From: a virus
Direction: 5' to 3' (one strand)
Virus record (IMG/VR): IMGVR_UViG_3300009514_000374
Location: 62,001 to 126,000 of that record
DNA length: 64,000 nt
Position numbers and translations under genes: made by a program. The notes beneath the pieces were generated by a model. That model searched no databases, had not been told where the DNA came from, and saw only the letters and a program-made list of their open reading frames with translations. Position 1 is the first letter of the stretch. Each line of letters starts with the position of its first letter. Positions 40,138 through 63,752 of this stretch are shown piece after piece.

Positions 40138-41010
40138 ATGACCGTATCTAACGCTACCAAGCAAAAGATCATCTCGGACTACATCAAGACTCCGACTGGT
40201 CGCGCCAAGCTGGCTGCCTCGATGACGCAGCCTCTCCGCACCCGACGTGACTACACGTCTGTTGGGCGCCGTACCTTCCTTGTCGAGCAGTTGCCAGATG
40301 GCGCGCTCCCGATCTACGACAAGGATCCCGATGTCACGGCCTACGTCGTCGGCGAGGAAGGCGAGAACATTCTCGCCATCACCAAGCCACGTCGCGTGAT
40401 CTTCCCGCTGTTTGAGATTGCCTCCAACCCGGAGATCCCTCTCACTCAGATCAAGGAGCGCAGGTTCGATCTGATCGAGCGCGCGCAAGACCTTGCTCGG
40501 GCTCAGATCCAGGCCGCCGAGGACGAGCGTGTGTTCGCTATCCTCGACGCCATCGCAACTGTCGGTTTCGATTCGCTTCCGGGCGGACTCAACCCCGACA
40601 TTCCGGTTGTCGCTCCCATCTCGGGTGCGGTGCTGGCTGACGCCTTCTCGCTCATTGAGCGCCACGACCTCCGGGTCGCGCGCGTCTACATGAACGCGAG
40701 GGACTACGCCGACATCCGCAAGTTCGGTCGGGACATTCTCGACATCGAGAGCCAGGCGACGCTGCTCAAGACTGGTCTGCAAGCTACCCTCTGGGGTGCC
40801 CAGATCATCACGAGCCGCCTCGTTCCGGTCGGCACGGTGTACGTCTGCTGCGAGCCCGAGATGTTTGGCCGCATCCCGGTTCGTACGGAATTGACCGTCT
40901 TGAGCGCGGACGACCCCCGCGCCCGTACCATCGGTTTCTCGGTTTTCGAGAACCTCGGCATCGGCGCCTACAACCCGCGCGGCCTGACGCGTCTGACCAT
41001 CACCCGCTAG
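40138..41010 (+). CDS. Major capsid protein
   Basis: The 290-residue protein follows TAGGAGTAGAACG and is the last gene before a strong terminator. A basic N-terminal helix (residues 1-35) is followed by mixed strands. The long spine-helix-like segment 'RFDLIERAQDLARAQIQAAEDERVFAIL' and the late beta strands 'VPVGTVYVCCEPEMFG' and 'IPVRTELTVLSADDPRARTIGFSVFENLGI' are the typical pattern of HK97-fold capsid proteins. There is no cleavable delta domain of usual size, consistent with a separate scaffold gene. Order protease-scaffold-decoration-capsid supports the call. Confidence 0.8.
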   Translation: MTVSNATKQKIISDYIKTPTGRAKLAASMTQPLRTRRDYTSVGRRTFLVEQLPDGALPIYDKDPDVTAYVVGEEGENILAITKPRRVIFPLFEIASNPEIPLTQIKERRFDLIERAQDLARAQIQAAEDERVFAILDAIATVGFDSLPGGLNPDIPVVAPISGAVLADAFSLIERHDLRVARVYMNARDYADIRKFGRDILDIESQATLLKTGLQATLWGAQIITSRLVPVGTVYVCCEPEMFGRIPVRTELTVLSADDPRARTIGFSVFENLGIGAYNPRGLTRLTITR

Positions 41011-41030
41011 TCGTAGCGAGTGACGGAGAG

Positions 41031-41062
41031 AAGCCCGCCCGGCGAAAGCCTGGCGGGCTTTT
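41031..41062 (+). terminator. Intrinsic terminator after the capsid gene
   Basis: AAGCCCGCC (41031-41039) pairs with GGCGGGCTT (41052-41060); inside, GGC and GCC extend the stem around a GAAA tetraloop. TT and C follow. It closes the virion operon. Confidence 0.8.
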
Positions 41063-41106
41063 CATTGGTTCTGGTCCGATGATTAGGTTTTTGCCGGCCC
41101 GTTCGG

Positions 41107-41118: not shown

Positions 41119-43611
41119 ATGTCGGAACCGAGTGGCGAAACCGAAGCGAACAAGCCCTATGCCCTTCACGGGAAGCTGACGGTCGAGAAGCTGCGTGAGA
41201 TGTACGAGGTCGAGCTACTGACCGACCAAGAGATTGCCGACCACTACGGGGTTTCAGATGCCGCTGTGAGCGGCCGGAGGAAACGGGCAGGCATCGCTAC
41301 CATGTCGGCTCGGCAACGCCGTGAGCGGAAAGCAGGGCGCTCGGGACCGTTCCTAGACGACCTGACTCCGACCGAGCTTGCGGACCTCTATAGCCGCATG
41401 GGTGATCGGCAGATCGCCGCGACGTACGGGGTCAAGAAACCTGCGATCTCCAGGCTCCGAGACAAGTGGGGGATCGGAGCTATCTCCAAAGCCGAGCGTG
41501 CGACCTCCAGGGAGCCTCTGACTGACGAGCAAAAGGAGATCGTGATCGGGGTGATGCTTGGGGACGGGCACTTGCTTTCGCGTGGAGTGTTCAAGGTCAG
41601 TCATTCGCAGCACCAGTACGAATACCTGTGCCACGTCCACGCGGCGCTGTCCTCCATCGCCAAGCCACTCTACTACGACGAGAAGGAGATGGCCGAGTCG
41701 GGAGAGCTTTGCCCTGGCTTCGGGTTTCGCACGGTTCAACATTCCTGGCTCAAGGCGATGCGTCGCCTGTTCTATCCCGAGGGCGAGCGGGTGTTTCCGG
41801 CCTCGGTGCTGGATAACCTGACGGAGCGTTCGCTGGCCTACTGGTACTTTGACGACGGCTACGAGAGCGATGGGTTGCCTCGGTTCGCCCTCGGCAAAAT
41901 CTCACGTTCCGCAGCCGAGGATGTCGTACAGCGAATCGGGAGGCGCTTTGGGTTCAAGACCTACGTGGGGTCGCCGGTTCCGAATTGCCAGATCATGTCG
42001 ATGCGGGCTGTGTCGTCTGAGCGGTTTTTTCGGATAGTCGTGGATTTCGCGTCGCCGGATATGCTCTACAAGGTCCCTGAGCGGTTCTGGCCTGCGCACG
42101 CTCGGCCTACAGTGAAGGTCAGGACGGTTGACCCGATCCAGCTTCCCAAGGAACTTCGGGGGACGGACCCGAGCTTGGAGGATGGCCTGTTGGCGTTTTG
42201 GCGGAAGCAGGGGTTCCCCTACCACGTTGCTCGGCCTGAGCACCTTCGTATCCTGGCGAATCTGGAGGCGAACCAAGTGCTCCAGGGGGACTCGCTGAAA
42301 ATTCGGCATGTTGGGCAGTCGTCGTGCCAGGCTTTCATGCCGCACATTTGGGAGGCGCATAGCTTTGCGACACCGAGTCCCAAGGCACTGTTCGACAACG
42401 ACGACCGGCTGCGGGAGGTGATCCGGCGAGGGCTCGCTGCGGGCATCGTGTTCAGCGCGGCAGGAATGCGTCAGGCTTTGAGGCGCTACCGTCTTACGAG
42501 CGTCTACAATTTCCGCCCGGCCGTTGCGAAGGTCTTGGTCGATCGGTTCTGTCCGAGTGGGGGGACGGTTTTCGACCCGTGTGCGGGTTGGGGTGGCCGC
42601 ATGTTGGGCACGTTGTTGTCGAGGGCGAACGCTCGTTACGTCTGCTGCGAGCCTAGCTCCAAGACGGTACGGGGTCTGCACGAAATGAAGATGTGGGTCG
42701 AGGGGCATGTAGTCGGTGCTGCGGATCGGGTGACGATCAACCCCGTCCCTGCGGAAACCTTCGACCCTCCCGAGGCGGATATGGTGTTGACCTCGCCGCC
42801 GTATTGGAAGCGGGAGGTTTACGCGGACGAGGACACACAGTCGTCGGCTCGCTACTCGACCTACGAGGCATGGGTCGATTCGTTCCTGCGGCCCATGATC
42901 GCTCGGAGCATCGCTGCCTTGAAATCGGGGGGCTGGCTCGTCCTGAACGTGGACGATTTTGCGATCGGGGAGACTAAGTACCGCTTGGTTCAGGACGTGA
43001 AGGACATCGTAGCGGAGCACGGGCTCCGCGACCCTGACGAGTTTCGGTATGAGATGCCGTCCTTCACTACCGAGGACAACTACGAGCCGGTGCTGGCTTG
43101 GCCGAAAGGGTTGGGCGTCGAGACTGCTCATTCGGATCCGGTTGCAGTTGCGGTCGGACAGCCTGAGCAGAAGGTCACGGCTCGGACGCCGCTGGCGAAG
43201 ATCTGTATTCAGTGCCGGAGGCGGTTTGAGACTCTGCGCGCGGACACGAAATACTGCTCGGATGCGTGCGGCTCTCAGTACCGGAAGCAGAAGCGCGGCG
43301 GGAAGCCACGAAAGACTCACCGGACCATCCAGTGCAAGGCGTGCGAGAATTCGTTTGCGATTCCGTTGACCGGGGGAGTGCCCAAGCACTGTCCCTCGTG
43401 TGCGATCGACATCGCGGAGAATCGTGAGCTTGCGGCACGGACCAAGGCGTGTGCGTACCGCCACTGTGGGCGCAAATTCTTGGATACCTCGACCAAGAAC
43501 ATCGCCAAGTTCTGCCACGTCGAGCATCGACGGCGGGAGAAGCTGTTTCGGTCGGGAAGGGCGGCAGACCTGTCGCATTTCCGCAACCCGGACCCGGTGC
43601 TCGATCGGTAG
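41119..43611 (+). CDS. HTH - LAGLIDADG endonuclease - DNA methyltransferase - zinc finger fusion
   Basis: The 830-residue protein combines four parts. Two helix-turn-helix units lie at residues about 33-58 (DQEIADHYGVSDAAVSGRRK) and 96-118 (DRQIAATYGVKKPAISRLRD). A LAGLIDADG homing endonuclease domain spans about 135-330, with motifs 'VIGVMLGDGHL' (142-152) and 'LAYWYFDDGYE' (239-249). An S-adenosylmethionine-dependent DNA methyltransferase spans about 345-665, with 'FDPCAGWGGRMLG' (485-497) and 'TSPPYW' (558-563), marking an amino-methyltransferase of adenine or cytosine. Three cysteine units follow (696-717, 739-761, 778-799). No intein junction residues are present, so this is a real fusion. 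It may cut and protect, or target methylation; both are inferences. Confidence 0.85.
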   Translation: MSEPSGETEANKPYALHGKLTVEKLREMYEVELLTDQEIADHYGVSDAAVSGRRKRAGIATMSARQRRERKAGRSGPFLDDLTPTELADLYSRMGDRQIAATYGVKKPAISRLRDKWGIGAISKAERATSREPLTDEQKEIVIGVMLGDGHLLSRGVFKVSHSQHQYEYLCHVHAALSSIAKPLYYDEKEMAESGELCPGFGFRTVQHSWLKAMRRLFYPEGERVFPASVLDNLTERSLAYWYFDDGYESDGLPRFALGKISRSAAEDVVQRIGRRFGFKTYVGSPVPNCQIMSMRAVSSERFFRIVVDFASPDMLYKVPERFWPAHARPTVKVRTVDPIQLPKELRGTDPSLEDGLLAFWRKQGFPYHVARPEHLRILANLEANQVLQGDSLKIRHVGQSSCQAFMPHIWEAHSFATPSPKALFDNDDRLREVIRRGLAAGIVFSAAGMRQALRRYRLTSVYNFRPAVAKVLVDRFCPSGGTVFDPCAGWGGRMLGTLLSRANARYVCCEPSSKTVRGLHEMKMWVEGHVVGAADRVTINPVPAETFDPPEADMVLTSPPYWKREVYADEDTQSSARYSTYEAWVDSFLRPMIARSIAALKSGGWLVLNVDDFAIGETKYRLVQDVKDIVAEHGLRDPDEFRYEMPSFTTEDNYEPVLAWPKGLGVETAHSDPVAVAVGQPEQKVTARTPLAKICIQCRRRFETLRADTKYCSDACGSQYRKQKRGGKPRKTHRTIQCKACENSFAIPLTGGVPKHCPSCAIDIAENRELAARTKACAYRHCGRKFLDTSTKNIAKFCHVEHRRREKLFRSGRAADLSHFRNPDPVLDR

Positions 43612-44293: not shown

Positions 44294-44905
44294 ATGGAGC
44301 CCTACGTCGTTCTCAAAGCCACGGTTGAGCCCTTGCTGAACCCCCCTGACAACCCGTGGACTCCCATTTCCGCGCGAATTTTTCTGTGTAGCGCGGATGG
44401 CGGGGAAACAGAGATCGGGGAAACATCTTGGGTACGTTTGGACCCTGGTCATGGACGCGAGCTTTGGGACCTCTTTGACGATGAAAGCGCGGGAACGCAT
44501 GAAGCCTACTGCGCCTTGAGGGAAAACGGCGTACTGGATAACGACGATCCTAGCTTTTGTGGGGTGGGCATCGGGTACAGCTATTTCTTGTGCGGGGTGG
44601 AGACGGTCATTGACCCGGAGTATCGGGGGCATGGGTATGGGCTGGAGGCGCTGGCTGCCTTCTTGCGGTTTTTTGCCTCTGAGAGTAACGGGCTGGTCGT
44701 CATCCGACCGGCCCCTTTGCCGGAGGGGCCGGAGGAACAGGACGTGGTTGCTTTGCGTGCTGCGGGGGTCAAGAGGCTCCAAGGCTACTGGTCCCGGTTG
44801 GGGTTTGATCAGGTCGGAGATACGGAATTTTTCATGTCTGAGACGGATATGAGACATCCGTGGAATTCAAGTGAGCCGGTTCGTGAAGCTGTCGGGCATG
44901 GTTGA
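44294..44905 (+). CDS. GNAT-family N-acetyltransferase
   Basis: The ATG at 44294 gives 203 residues. The acetyl-CoA loop is seen as 'VIDPEYRGHGYGLEALAAFL' (R-x-x-G-x-G), and the C-terminal part has 'GVKRLQGYWSRLGFDQVG' with the strand 'DTEFFM', typical of GNAT. Substrate is unknown. Phage GNATs can modify host proteins, tRNA or antibiotics. The end overlaps the start of the next gene by 8 bases. Confidence 0.7.
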   Translation: MEPYVVLKATVEPLLNPPDNPWTPISARIFLCSADGGETEIGETSWVRLDPGHGRELWDLFDDESAGTHEAYCALRENGVLDNDDPSFCGVGIGYSYFLCGVETVIDPEYRGHGYGLEALAAFLRFFASESNGLVVIRPAPLPEGPEEQDVVALRAAGVKRLQGYWSRLGFDQVGDTEFFMSETDMRHPWNSSEPVREAVGHG

Positions 44906-45551
44906 GCGGACACTCTTTGACGAGTGGGGCATCACCCCGGCGGAGTACAGCGATCTGCTGGCGCGCAACGCCAACTTGCGCGGAATTTCCCAAGGATATG
45001 TGGCAGAGGACAAGCTGCAAGCGCGCCTGCTTGATCACCCCGAGGTATCCGCGTGCGTGAAAATGGCCGATCAGGATCGGAACCATCCCTATGATTTCCT
45101 CGTAACGTACAGGGGGTCGAAGATCAGGGTGGAGTCCAAGGGGCCTCAGTCGGGGAAGGTGACGCGCTTGGGGAATCCCCAAATCTGCCGGGCCATTTGG
45201 AAATACGACACCACCGGGCGGCGGAAGATCAAGGTGGGAGGCTGCGAGATCGACAAGTACAATCGGCCTTTCGGGGAGTGTGACGTGAATGCCGTCCCTC
45301 TCTTTGACGTGATCGGGCGGTGGGAATTCGCCTTCATCTTGAACCGAGATCTGAAACCCACGACCTCGCCTCAAATCCCCGCTGAGATCCGCCATCTTGT
45401 ATGCAAGATCGATCAGACGGTACGTTGGCCTCCGTTGCCTCCCTACTATGACAACCCGTTCGGCTTGTTTGACACGTTGGTCGCGGAAGGCGTTGAGGGT
45501 GTGAAGGTGACGCACCCCGAACCCGACTACCCGTTCCTGTGGGCGACCTAG
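44898..45551 (+). CDS. PD-(D/E)XK restriction-type endonuclease candidate
   Basis: The ATG at 44898 gives 217 residues. Residues about 43-76 show 'KLQARLLDHPEVSACVKMAD', then 'HPYDFLVTYRG' and 'IRVESKG', fitting the D-(x9-12)-E-x-K core of restriction and repair nucleases. A helical and beta segment with 'CDVNAVPLFDVIGRWEFAFI' follows. The target is not known. It is three genes downstream of the methyltransferase fusion, so a restriction partner role is conceivable but the genes are not adjacent. Confidence 0.55.
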   Translation: MVERTLFDEWGITPAEYSDLLARNANLRGISQGYVAEDKLQARLLDHPEVSACVKMADQDRNHPYDFLVTYRGSKIRVESKGPQSGKVTRLGNPQICRAIWKYDTTGRRKIKVGGCEIDKYNRPFGECDVNAVPLFDVIGRWEFAFILNRDLKPTTSPQIPAEIRHLVCKIDQTVRWPPLPPYYDNPFGLFDTLVAEGVEGVKVTHPEPDYPFLWAT

Positions 45552-61040: not shown

Positions 61041-63752
61041 ATGGCTGGAACACAGACCGACAACCTTTTGCTGCTCGACCTCACGACGGGTCTGTCTCGG
61101 ACTCCTGAAACCGGAGGCACCCCGGACGACATCGCTACCAGTGTGGATTGGGCCTGGACCTCGGGGGCGAATGTCGTCATCGACGGCAACCTCACAGTCA
61201 ACGGAACGACGACCACTGTTCACTCTGAACAGATCAACGTCCGTGACAACCACCTGTACCTGAACGCGGACTACACCACCGTCGTTGCTCAGACGGGTGG
61301 GCTCGTGATCAACGTCCTGCCGACTGCCACCGTGGACACCGTGGCGGGGGCGTTCGTGGCGGGTATCCCTGCGGGAGCCAACCCTACGGTGATTACGGGC
61401 ACGGGCGGCATCTTTGCGGCTGGCGATGTTATCCAGATCGCGGGGTCGAACAATCAGGATAACGATGGGATCTTTGAGGTTCTGAGTCACGTCGGCACGA
61501 CTCTGACGATCAAGGGTGTCGGTACGACGGGTGCGACGGTTCCGTGGGTTGTCAACCAGTTTACGGCAGATACGGTAGCTGGCGGCGACATTCGCGTCGT
61601 GAACGTGAATGTCTTGGAGGGCGATTCCACCGGAACGTGGAGCACGGCGACCGTCACGAACACGACCGGCATCACCTACGTCGATCTCACCACGCAAGGG
61701 TTGGTCGATCTCCAAGAAGCCTACGAGCAGGGGAACACCATTACCACGTCGGCTGGAGAAGGCAACGTCACCATCGGTGGCACGGAGCTTCTCAACATCA
61801 CTGCGACGGGCGGTCTGGACCTCGACACCATCCTCGATTTCGACGGAACGGGTTTCGATGTTCAGATGACGGGAAGCAACGGCTTCTCCCTCGACGGCAC
61901 GGCGGCATCAAATGTCAGCGTCACGGCGGGCAACCTGGACCTCACGACCATCACATCGGGAGATGTGAATGTTTCGTCGGCGGGCGAACTTGACCTCGAC
62001 GCCGTAACCACGATGGTCCTGAACACGGCTGATGCGGCCGACGCGTCGGGAAATGACATCACGGTTACGGCCGCTAGCTCTACGGCTGGCACGGCAGACG
62101 GAGCCTCAATCATCCTGACGCCCGGCGACGGGTTCACTACGGGTGTTGCTGGATTCGTGAACATCACGTCGCCTGCTGACGAGGATGAAATCCTGCTCCA
62201 GCTTGAGTCCACAGGGTCCGGGGCGAACGCGGTCGGACTGTTCACGGGTACGAGCGTTCCTAGTGGCTCTGTCACGGCGGACGCCGGTTCGTTGTTCATG
62301 CGGGACACCGGCACGGGCGGTGAGGTTTACGTCAACACGTCCACAGGTTCGGGTACCTCTTGGACGTTGCTTACGGCTGGAGGCGGAAACAGTCTCCAGG
62401 CAGCCTACGCGGCCGGGAACACCATCGTCACAAACGCGGGCGACGGCGACCTCGATGTTTCCGGTACGGAAGCGATCAGCTTGGATGCGAGTGCAGCCTC
62501 CAATTTCACGGTTGCGGGTGCGAACCTCGATTTGGGTACGACCACATCGGGAGATGTGAATGTCTCGGCTGCGGGCGAGCTTGATCTCGACGCCGTAACC
62601 ACGATGGTCCTGAATACGGCCAATGCGGCTGATGCGTCGGCCAACGACATCACGATCACCGCTGCTAGCTCTACGGCTGGCACGGCAGATGGTGCGTCGA
62701 TCATCTTGACGCCCGGTGACGGGTTCACGACCGGAGTCGCGGGCTCCGTAGACATCCTCGGCCCGAATGACGAGGACGAGGCTCTTGTCACCCTGACAAC
62801 CACGGGCACGAACGGCGATTCGGTGGGCTTGTTCGTCGGCGACAGCGACCCGAGCGGGTCGATCACGGCTCTGGCAGGTTCGCTGTTTTTCCGTGATACG
62901 GGTTCGGGAGCGGAGCTTTACCTCAACCAATCCTCGGGTTCGGGCACCACTTGGACGGCCCTTTCCACGGGTGGGGCAGTCACTCTCCAGAACGCTTATG
63001 TCAACGGCAACACGATTACCACATCGGCGGGTGAAGGCGATGTGACGCTCACTGGCACTGAGGATTTCGTTGTGACCCTCAGCGATATGCTGGTGGATAC
63101 GACGGCGAGTATCAGCCTGGATGCGGACGCTGCGTCGAATTTCACGGTTGCCGGGGCGAACCTGACCCTGGAGACGACGACCTCTGGCACGGTAGACATC
63201 AACTCGGCGGCGGACATCGACATCACCTTCGCGGCAGCCAACTCGGCAGCGATGGTCGTTGACGATGGCAGCAACACGTACATGACCTTCGACTCAACGG
63301 TGGCTGAGCCCGCAGTTGAGGTTAGCCAGTTTCTCGACATCGTGGGTTCGGGAGCAGGTGTCACGCTCACAGCGGGAGAGGCCATTGTGGCGGGAGATGT
63401 GCTCACCATCGAGGCGACCTCGGGTGATGCGATCTTGGCCGATTCCAACACCGGCACGACGCTGGATGGCCTCGCCATCGGTGTTGCGGCGTTTGCGGCT
63501 GCGGACACGGCTCCCGTGAAGGTCTACACGGTGGCGGGCAACCTGATCCCCGTCAGCTTCTCGGCGGCCCCGGCTGCCGCAAGCAACGGCAGCCCGGTGT
63601 TCGTCAGCGCGACCCCTGGTCGCGCCACGCTGACGGCCCCCACGGGCTCCGGCAACGTCGTCTATCTCTTGGGTATTCTCCAAGGGGCGGACGGCGCGGA
63701 CACGTCCCCACTGGTCTTGTTCCAGCCGCAATTCATCGCGGTGCGCCCGTAG
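61041..63752 (+). CDS. Repetitive tail fibre-like protein
   Basis: The 903-residue protein follows AAAGGAGCACCACC, a strong ribosome binding site. It is Thr, Gly, Ala and Asp-rich and contains repeats such as 'GDVNVSSAGELDLDAVTTM' and 'GDVNVSAAGELDLDAVTTM' about 197 residues apart, with 'LQNAYVNGNTITTSAGEGDV' type units between them. The end 'LLGILQGADGADTSPLVLF' matches the previous protein. The underlying DNA is duplicated at about 61953-62151 and 62544-62742. Probably a long, receptor-binding fibre. Confidence 0.65.
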   Translation: MAGTQTDNLLLLDLTTGLSRTPETGGTPDDIATSVDWAWTSGANVVIDGNLTVNGTTTTVHSEQINVRDNHLYLNADYTTVVAQTGGLVINVLPTATVDTVAGAFVAGIPAGANPTVITGTGGIFAAGDVIQIAGSNNQDNDGIFEVLSHVGTTLTIKGVGTTGATVPWVVNQFTADTVAGGDIRVVNVNVLEGDSTGTWSTATVTNTTGITYVDLTTQGLVDLQEAYEQGNTITTSAGEGNVTIGGTELLNITATGGLDLDTILDFDGTGFDVQMTGSNGFSLDGTAASNVSVTAGNLDLTTITSGDVNVSSAGELDLDAVTTMVLNTADAADASGNDITVTAASSTAGTADGASIILTPGDGFTTGVAGFVNITSPADEDEILLQLESTGSGANAVGLFTGTSVPSGSVTADAGSLFMRDTGTGGEVYVNTSTGSGTSWTLLTAGGGNSLQAAYAAGNTIVTNAGDGDLDVSGTEAISLDASAASNFTVAGANLDLGTTTSGDVNVSAAGELDLDAVTTMVLNTANAADASANDITITAASSTAGTADGASIILTPGDGFTTGVAGSVDILGPNDEDEALVTLTTTGTNGDSVGLFVGDSDPSGSITALAGSLFFRDTGSGAELYLNQSSGSGTTWTALSTGGAVTLQNAYVNGNTITTSAGEGDVTLTGTEDFVVTLSDMLVDTTASISLDADAASNFTVAGANLTLETTTSGTVDINSAADIDITFAAANSAAMVVDDGSNTYMTFDSTVAEPAVEVSQFLDIVGSGAGVTLTAGEAIVAGDVLTIEATSGDAILADSNTGTTLDGLAIGVAAFAAADTAPVKVYTVAGNLIPVSFSAAPAAASNGSPVFVSATPGRATLTAPTGSGNVVYLLGILQGADGADTSPLVLFQPQFIAVRP
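61953..62742 (+). repeat. Tandem long direct repeat inside the fibre gene
   Basis: Two copies of about 199 bases (61953-62151 and 62544-62742), offset 591 bases or 197 codons, with identical runs such as the segment around 62002-62027. The distance preserves the reading frame, so recombination would change fibre length without a frameshift. Confidence 0.7.

Follow-up and report, generated by a model that had tools for sequence, protein, structure and literature searches.

A large-phage gene downstream of the major capsid gene joins a LAGLIDADG nuclease to a predicted DNA methyltransferase

The fusion gene and its domains

The window, a stretch of 64,000 nucleotides (positions 62,001 to 126,000 of IMG/VR virus record IMGVR_UViG_3300009514_000374), carries on its plus strand a major capsid protein gene (40138-41010; phrog_2522, E=2e-49), a terminator-like hairpin (41028-41063) and the fusion gene studied here (41119-43611). 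The fusion gene runs from ATG to stop without internal stops and encodes 830 aa, and the stop-to-stop frame exceeds this open reading frame (ORF) by three codons only. All its features given below lie on the same strand. An ORF of 226 aa with a PD-(D/E)XK-like stretch (YDFLVTYRGSKIRVESKG) and no Pfam or PHROG match is located 1.3 kb 3′ of the fusion gene (44871-45551, plus strand).

An earlier note, based on the sequence, had described a single polypeptide combining two helix-turn-helix (HTH) units, a LAGLIDADG endonuclease, a methyltransferase and zinc fingers. Profile searches, a structural model and Foldseek comparisons confirmed this domain list in full, and the LGDG, DDG, FDPCAGWGG (485) and TSPPYW (558) motifs were all found at the residues indicated. 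HTH unit 1 (residues 33-58; 41215-41292) has a weak Sigma70_r4 match, and HTH unit 2 (residues 84-118; 41368-41472) matches HTH_23 (E=5.9e-4). The note had placed these units at residues 33-58 and 96-118, and helix-turn-helix triplets were modeled at residues 22-57 and 84-117. At the other end of the protein, the cysteine (zinc) units that it had seen at residues 696-799 (43204-43515) have a weak zf-CGNR match, and their cysteines are conserved across the family described below.

The nuclease domain covers residues 133-322 (41515-42084). LAGLIDADG_2 (PF03161) matched residues 139-286 with E=4.6e-21 and 75.9 bits, for a curated cutoff of 25. The closest solved structure is I-SceI (E=3e-11 by sequence and 1.2e-22 by family profile), to whose motifs both nuclease motifs align, namely LGDG with D149 (codon 41563-41565) and DDG with D246 (codon 41854-41856). 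The amino-methyltransferase domain (residues 349-661; 42163-43101) has the extent of stand-alone phage methyltransferases. It matches phrog_12517 (E=3.3e-17), and its N6_N4_Mtase match (8.9e-6) is slightly below the Pfam cutoff, which relatives exceed. Motif I, VFDPCAGWGGR (residues 484-494; 42568-42600), precedes motif IV, TSPPYW (residues 558-563; 42790-42807), on a Rossmann fold.

The AlphaFold2 model, a check that the note had proposed, was built with 29 sequences and has a mean pLDDT of 90. It shows the HTH and cysteine units as separate helices and strands. Foldseek recovered I-SceI (TM 0.77, target normalized) and Rossmann methyltransferases, among which RNA methyltransferases also appeared, and this counts against a DNA-modification reading. 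The nuclease is likely to be active, and the other catalytic domain is predicted, with a little less assurance, to be an active DNA methyltransferase. An intein or intron origin was rejected, as the Pfam scan returned no intein domain, no Rfam match was found within the window, and the methyltransferase is uninterrupted.

A family of relatives in a variable slot

The note had also suggested searching for the same domain order. Scans of IMG/VR revealed the order HTH-HTH-LAGLIDADG-methyltransferase-zinc in a family of 19 viral loci, a few of them cut by contig ends. A full-length relative (43.6% identity over 99% of the query) was found in the uncultured 485-kb phage LR745208, and the whole architecture is kept down to approximately 40% identity. 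A chance origin of this architecture is excluded. D149 and D246 are invariant in all 19 aligned members. One lineage of the 19 has lost the methyltransferase, and in the other 18 members motif IV and, within motif I, D486, P487, C488, G490, G492, G493 and R494 are invariant. The dN/dS ratios are 0.05-0.16 in the nuclease and methyltransferase domains alike. A decayed LAGLIDADG insertion is therefore ruled out. These features also bear on the possibility that the methyltransferase, HTH and zinc parts serve mainly as a DNA-reading scaffold or an autoregulator for the nuclease, with methylation being secondary. DNA-binding modules do often accumulate in large phage nucleases, but a mere scaffold would not need invariant motifs I and IV or low dN/dS, and we consider this explanation improbable.

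The methyltransferase family itself, for which 563 relatives were found, is a common stand-alone phage gene. Its stand-alone members are 330-400 aa long, and one of them, from a Vibrio phage, bears the annotation N-4 cytosine-specific DNA methylase. They indicate that the N-terminal part was added to a complete methyltransferase rather than inserted in it. No cellular home was found with the full-length fusion profile in genome_contigs. There, the methyltransferase profile detected two fusions (L194 and L195), each on a metagenome-assembled genome (MAG) contig with a matching phage capsid gene.

In all family loci the fusion gene is directly 3′ of the major capsid gene, usually with a terminator hairpin in between; almost every relative examined has an equivalent hairpin after its capsid gene. 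Capsid protein identity among the family loci is 66-94%. Scanning with the capsid protein only yielded 80 loci, 68 of which had enough downstream sequence for the slot to be read. The slot is a hot spot with swappable occupants: it holds a LAGLIDADG-methyltransferase fusion in 7 cases, a methyltransferase with another domain in 3 and a LAGLIDADG gene without methyltransferase in 22, while 36 loci have neither. The earlier note had set against its reading the outcome of a decayed LAGLIDADG portion, together with same-locus methyltransferase relatives that are intact but lack the N-terminal region. We found the opposite: the nuclease residues are invariant in 19/19, and the capsid-protein scan detected no methyltransferase of this family standing alone in the capsid slot. 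Two local arrangements were also seen. In a 618-kb phage, three LAGLIDADG genes of different lineages lie in tandem behind the capsid gene (L115:5991-9111, plus strand), and in another locus a probable intein (CFPPGTRVLLADG...VHN ends) is present in a protein encoded 5′ of the capsid gene (L004:2-2650, plus strand).

The classes of occupant are scattered over the capsid tree, with 30 changes (for the fusion, 16 versus 18.1 when shuffled), and three sets of identical capsid proteins carry differing occupants. Pairwise DNA comparisons showed sharp replacement borders, one at the capsid stop and the other ahead of the following gene. Between L153 (fusion) and L155 (no occupant), the DNA matches to 4 nucleotides past the capsid stop and resumes at 2541 and 142, respectively; between L024 (fusion) and L125 (lone LAGLIDADG), it matches to the same point and resumes at 2836 and 1150. 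Nuclease and methyltransferase distances are correlated (r=0.77, or 0.71 without the outlier L005), and the correlation of nuclease with capsid distances is 0.10 without L005. The two halves are thus inherited as one unit, decoupled from the neighboring gene. Free-standing homing endonucleases are expected to occur sporadically at one fixed site and to have clean borders, as seen here. Patchy occupants, sharp borders and a history unlike that of the capsid gene together describe the behavior of a mobile cassette, and the fusion gene is very probably one. It might be argued that no homing takes place, and that the protein is a stably inherited exclusion enzyme of restriction-modification type, or one degrading host DNA, in a slot that merely tolerates accessory genes. 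The conserved position behind the capsid terminator and the retention of the whole architecture to approximately 40% identity would fit such an enzyme; nevertheless, occupants switch between near-identical backbones, occupancy is patchy and the cassette phylogeny is decoupled from that of the capsid, which makes stable inheritance very unlikely.

Recurrent fusions and losses

The methyltransferase family has had several nuclease partners. The fused LAGLIDADG domains of L113, L174 and L195 group with stand-alone LAGLIDADG proteins. A single origin of all LAGLIDADG-methyltransferase fusions was rejected from the nuclease side, where one clade was rejected with a delta lnL of 165 (p 4e-57). From the methyltransferase side a single origin was not rejected (p-AU 0.114 and 0.472), so that nuclease swapping onto one methyltransferase and repeated fusion are indistinguishable by these values.

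At least two other kinds of nuclease are fused to this family. In L122, L133, L153 and L194, zinc units and a duplicated PD-(D/E)XK-like domain are joined to it, with the same capsid gene upstream. The fold of the PD-(D/E)XK-like part matches NhoI, Eco15I and I-Ssp6803I, and as the pLDDT of its model is 58, these matches support the identity without proving it. A pattern scan returned no further relatives of this part past the three known ones. In L205, L206, L207 and L208 (from genomes G001, G009, G008 and G010, respectively), HTH and zinc-finger units accompany the methyltransferase and a domain matching phrog_9084 ("homing endonuclease") and phrog_559. The three of these that were examined occupy a second slot, adjoining a conserved upstream gene of approximately 1,800 codons without PHROGs match. 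Two copies of that gene (G001:C1:36760-44184 and G008:C1:150603-158066) are approximately 700 codons longer, with an unmatched middle that is perhaps another insertion element. The L004 genome harbors both a LAGLIDADG fusion and one fusion of the phrog_9084 type. Finally, the same methyltransferase family is fused to zinc-finger, NUMOD3 and Vsr-like nuclease parts in L007:3780-5723 (plus strand), which belongs to the 484-kb phage record LR756508.

Losses were also detected, in two lineages that kept the nuclease. In L101 the methyltransferase core has been lost in frame, with both nuclease aspartates and the zinc units retained. L107, L014 and L108 share 4.3 kb with L012 at 99.98-100% identity (100% for L107) and diverge from it where the methyltransferase starts; the sequences of L106 and L109 end at the L012/L107 breakpoint. 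The methyltransferase is therefore not strictly required, and the nuclease can persist alone, if perhaps only for a while. In L001 an additional LAGLIDADG copy, of the other lineage, lies at the N terminus, and both its catalytic acids are changed. This copy fits a fusion of stacked cassettes, and it shows that inactive domains can persist as modules, a point in favor of the scaffold explanation considered above.

It may be that the cassette is mobile and its methyltransferase is beneficial cargo, modifying other, commoner sites against restriction without shielding the nuclease target. The family is commonly stand-alone in phages, where it is usually read as anti-restriction, and cargo of this kind could be lost with the nuclease kept, as in L101, L107 and its kin, in a slot that also keeps lone LAGLIDADG genes. 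What the cargo explanation leaves unaccounted for is the recurrent fusion in one chain with several nuclease types, instead of two adjacent genes, and we regard it as rather unlikely. An unlinked methyltransferase of the family was found in 5/7 genomes with a lone LAGLIDADG gene versus 1/7, a difference that is not significant (p 0.10, weak matches uncounted). In a 376-kb virus record whose capsid slot is occupied by a lone LAGLIDADG gene, seven ORFs of approximately 400 aa that belong to this methyltransferase family form a cluster (G011:C1:268524-295009).

A possible mode of action and its relation to known systems

The repeated pairing of this methyltransferase family with different kinds of nuclease suggests, without proving it, a mobile weapon carrying its own antidote. 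We see a close to even chance that it is a free-standing homing cassette acting like a single-chain restriction-modification enzyme, with the methyltransferase shielding the uncut target of the carrier. Having settled without intron or intein downstream of the major capsid gene in a group of large tailed phages, the cassette would produce a protein kept on DNA by its HTH and zinc modules. The I-SceI-like domain would cut target DNA that lacks the modification, in a co-infecting phage or in one whose site is empty; the cassette would then be copied into the cut phage by repair, or the rival would be excluded. The fused amino-methyltransferase would most likely modify the same recognition region, so that the uninterrupted copy of the carrier is spared. 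As the conserved sequence at the slot, the capsid gene is the likely candidate target.

Self-protection by the fused methyltransferase is plausible for the following reason. The cleavage sites of free-standing phage homing nucleases lie hundreds to thousands of bp away from the nuclease gene (PMC2988022), and insertion of the cassette alone thus need not protect the donor. The carrier would need another shield. The simplest one is a methyltransferase that is part of the nuclease chain and is guided by the DNA-binding modules they share, and it would explain the recurrent fusion. Recurrence with several nuclease types and the co-evolution of the two halves lend circumstantial support to cutting and protection at one target. 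The methyltransferase-less L101 and L107 and the many lone LAGLIDADG genes in the slot argue against the methyltransferase being necessary, and we hold a target common to both activities to be slightly doubtful. Of the self-protecting homing or exclusion module proposed in the earlier note, the single-chain architecture, the two active sites and a homing character were borne out, and the evidence for cutting and protecting one target is circumstantial.

The components have precedents. LAGLIDADG enzymes, intronless homing, single-chain restriction-modification and the joining of a lone LAGLIDADG domain to a phage methylase are all known. The fusion shares with I-SceI and LAGLIDADG_2 (PF03161) the fold, both catalytic aspartates and their spacing; it differs in being free-standing, outside any intron or intein, and in adding HTH units, zinc units and a methyltransferase in one chain. 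Like T4 segD, which lies in the 23/24 (capsid/vertex) interval adjoining the major capsid gene, among terminators (PMC2988022), and like other intronless phage homing endonucleases, it is a cassette between conserved virion genes. Those enzymes, however, are of GIY-YIG or HNH type and devoid of methyltransferase, and segD, unlike the fusion, is antisense. Type IIC/IIG enzymes such as Eco57I and MmeI also have nuclease and methyltransferase in one protein, the usual layout being a PD-(D/E)XK nuclease with a gamma-class NPPY methyltransferase (PMC4081073). The window fusion departs from this layout in having LAGLIDADG and TSPPYW, and it is phage borne and mobile at one slot.

Close to the fusion come the Taj-type actinophage methylases, in which a single chain contains a phage methylase and a lone LAGLIDADG domain; a restriction-modification role was weighed and doubted by the authors of that work, who noted that LAGLIDADG enzymes had not been described in restriction-modification systems (PMC9957025), a point against the mode of action given above. 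In Taj-type proteins, however, the nuclease is regarded as an element inserted into the methylase gene, whereas here it precedes an intact methyltransferase, and fusion to several nuclease types recurs in one slot. No actinophage was found among the sequence-search matches of the fusion protein. The jumbo-phage homing nuclease phiPA3 gp210, a weapon against co-infecting phage, can be likened to the fusion, but it is intron encoded and has no methyltransferase (PMC11620839).

In the literature searched, most subscription papers being outside it, we found neither the fusion family nor a repeated exchange of nucleases on one methyltransferase described. Tentatively, these genes may embody a restriction-modification principle based on homing endonucleases: one phage methyltransferase family would have been repeatedly fused to LAGLIDADG, PD-(D/E)XK-like and a further homing type of nuclease. 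The products would be mobile elements of one gene each, cutting the conserved virion genes of rival phages while methylating the uninterrupted copies of the carrier. If so, the fusion would be the first LAGLIDADG-based restriction-modification enzyme, joining homing endonucleases and restriction-modification, two classes of selfish DNA, in one gene. It would solve a known problem of intronless homing, namely how the donor escapes its own nuclease when insertion leaves the target uninterrupted. The slot beside the capsid gene would then be a hot spot of phage-phage conflict in widespread, mostly uncultured large phages. The same LAGLIDADG_2 family was also seen within apparent inteins of SNF2-type helicases and a ligase-like protein (L112, L114 and L209, with the splicing domain checked for L209 only).
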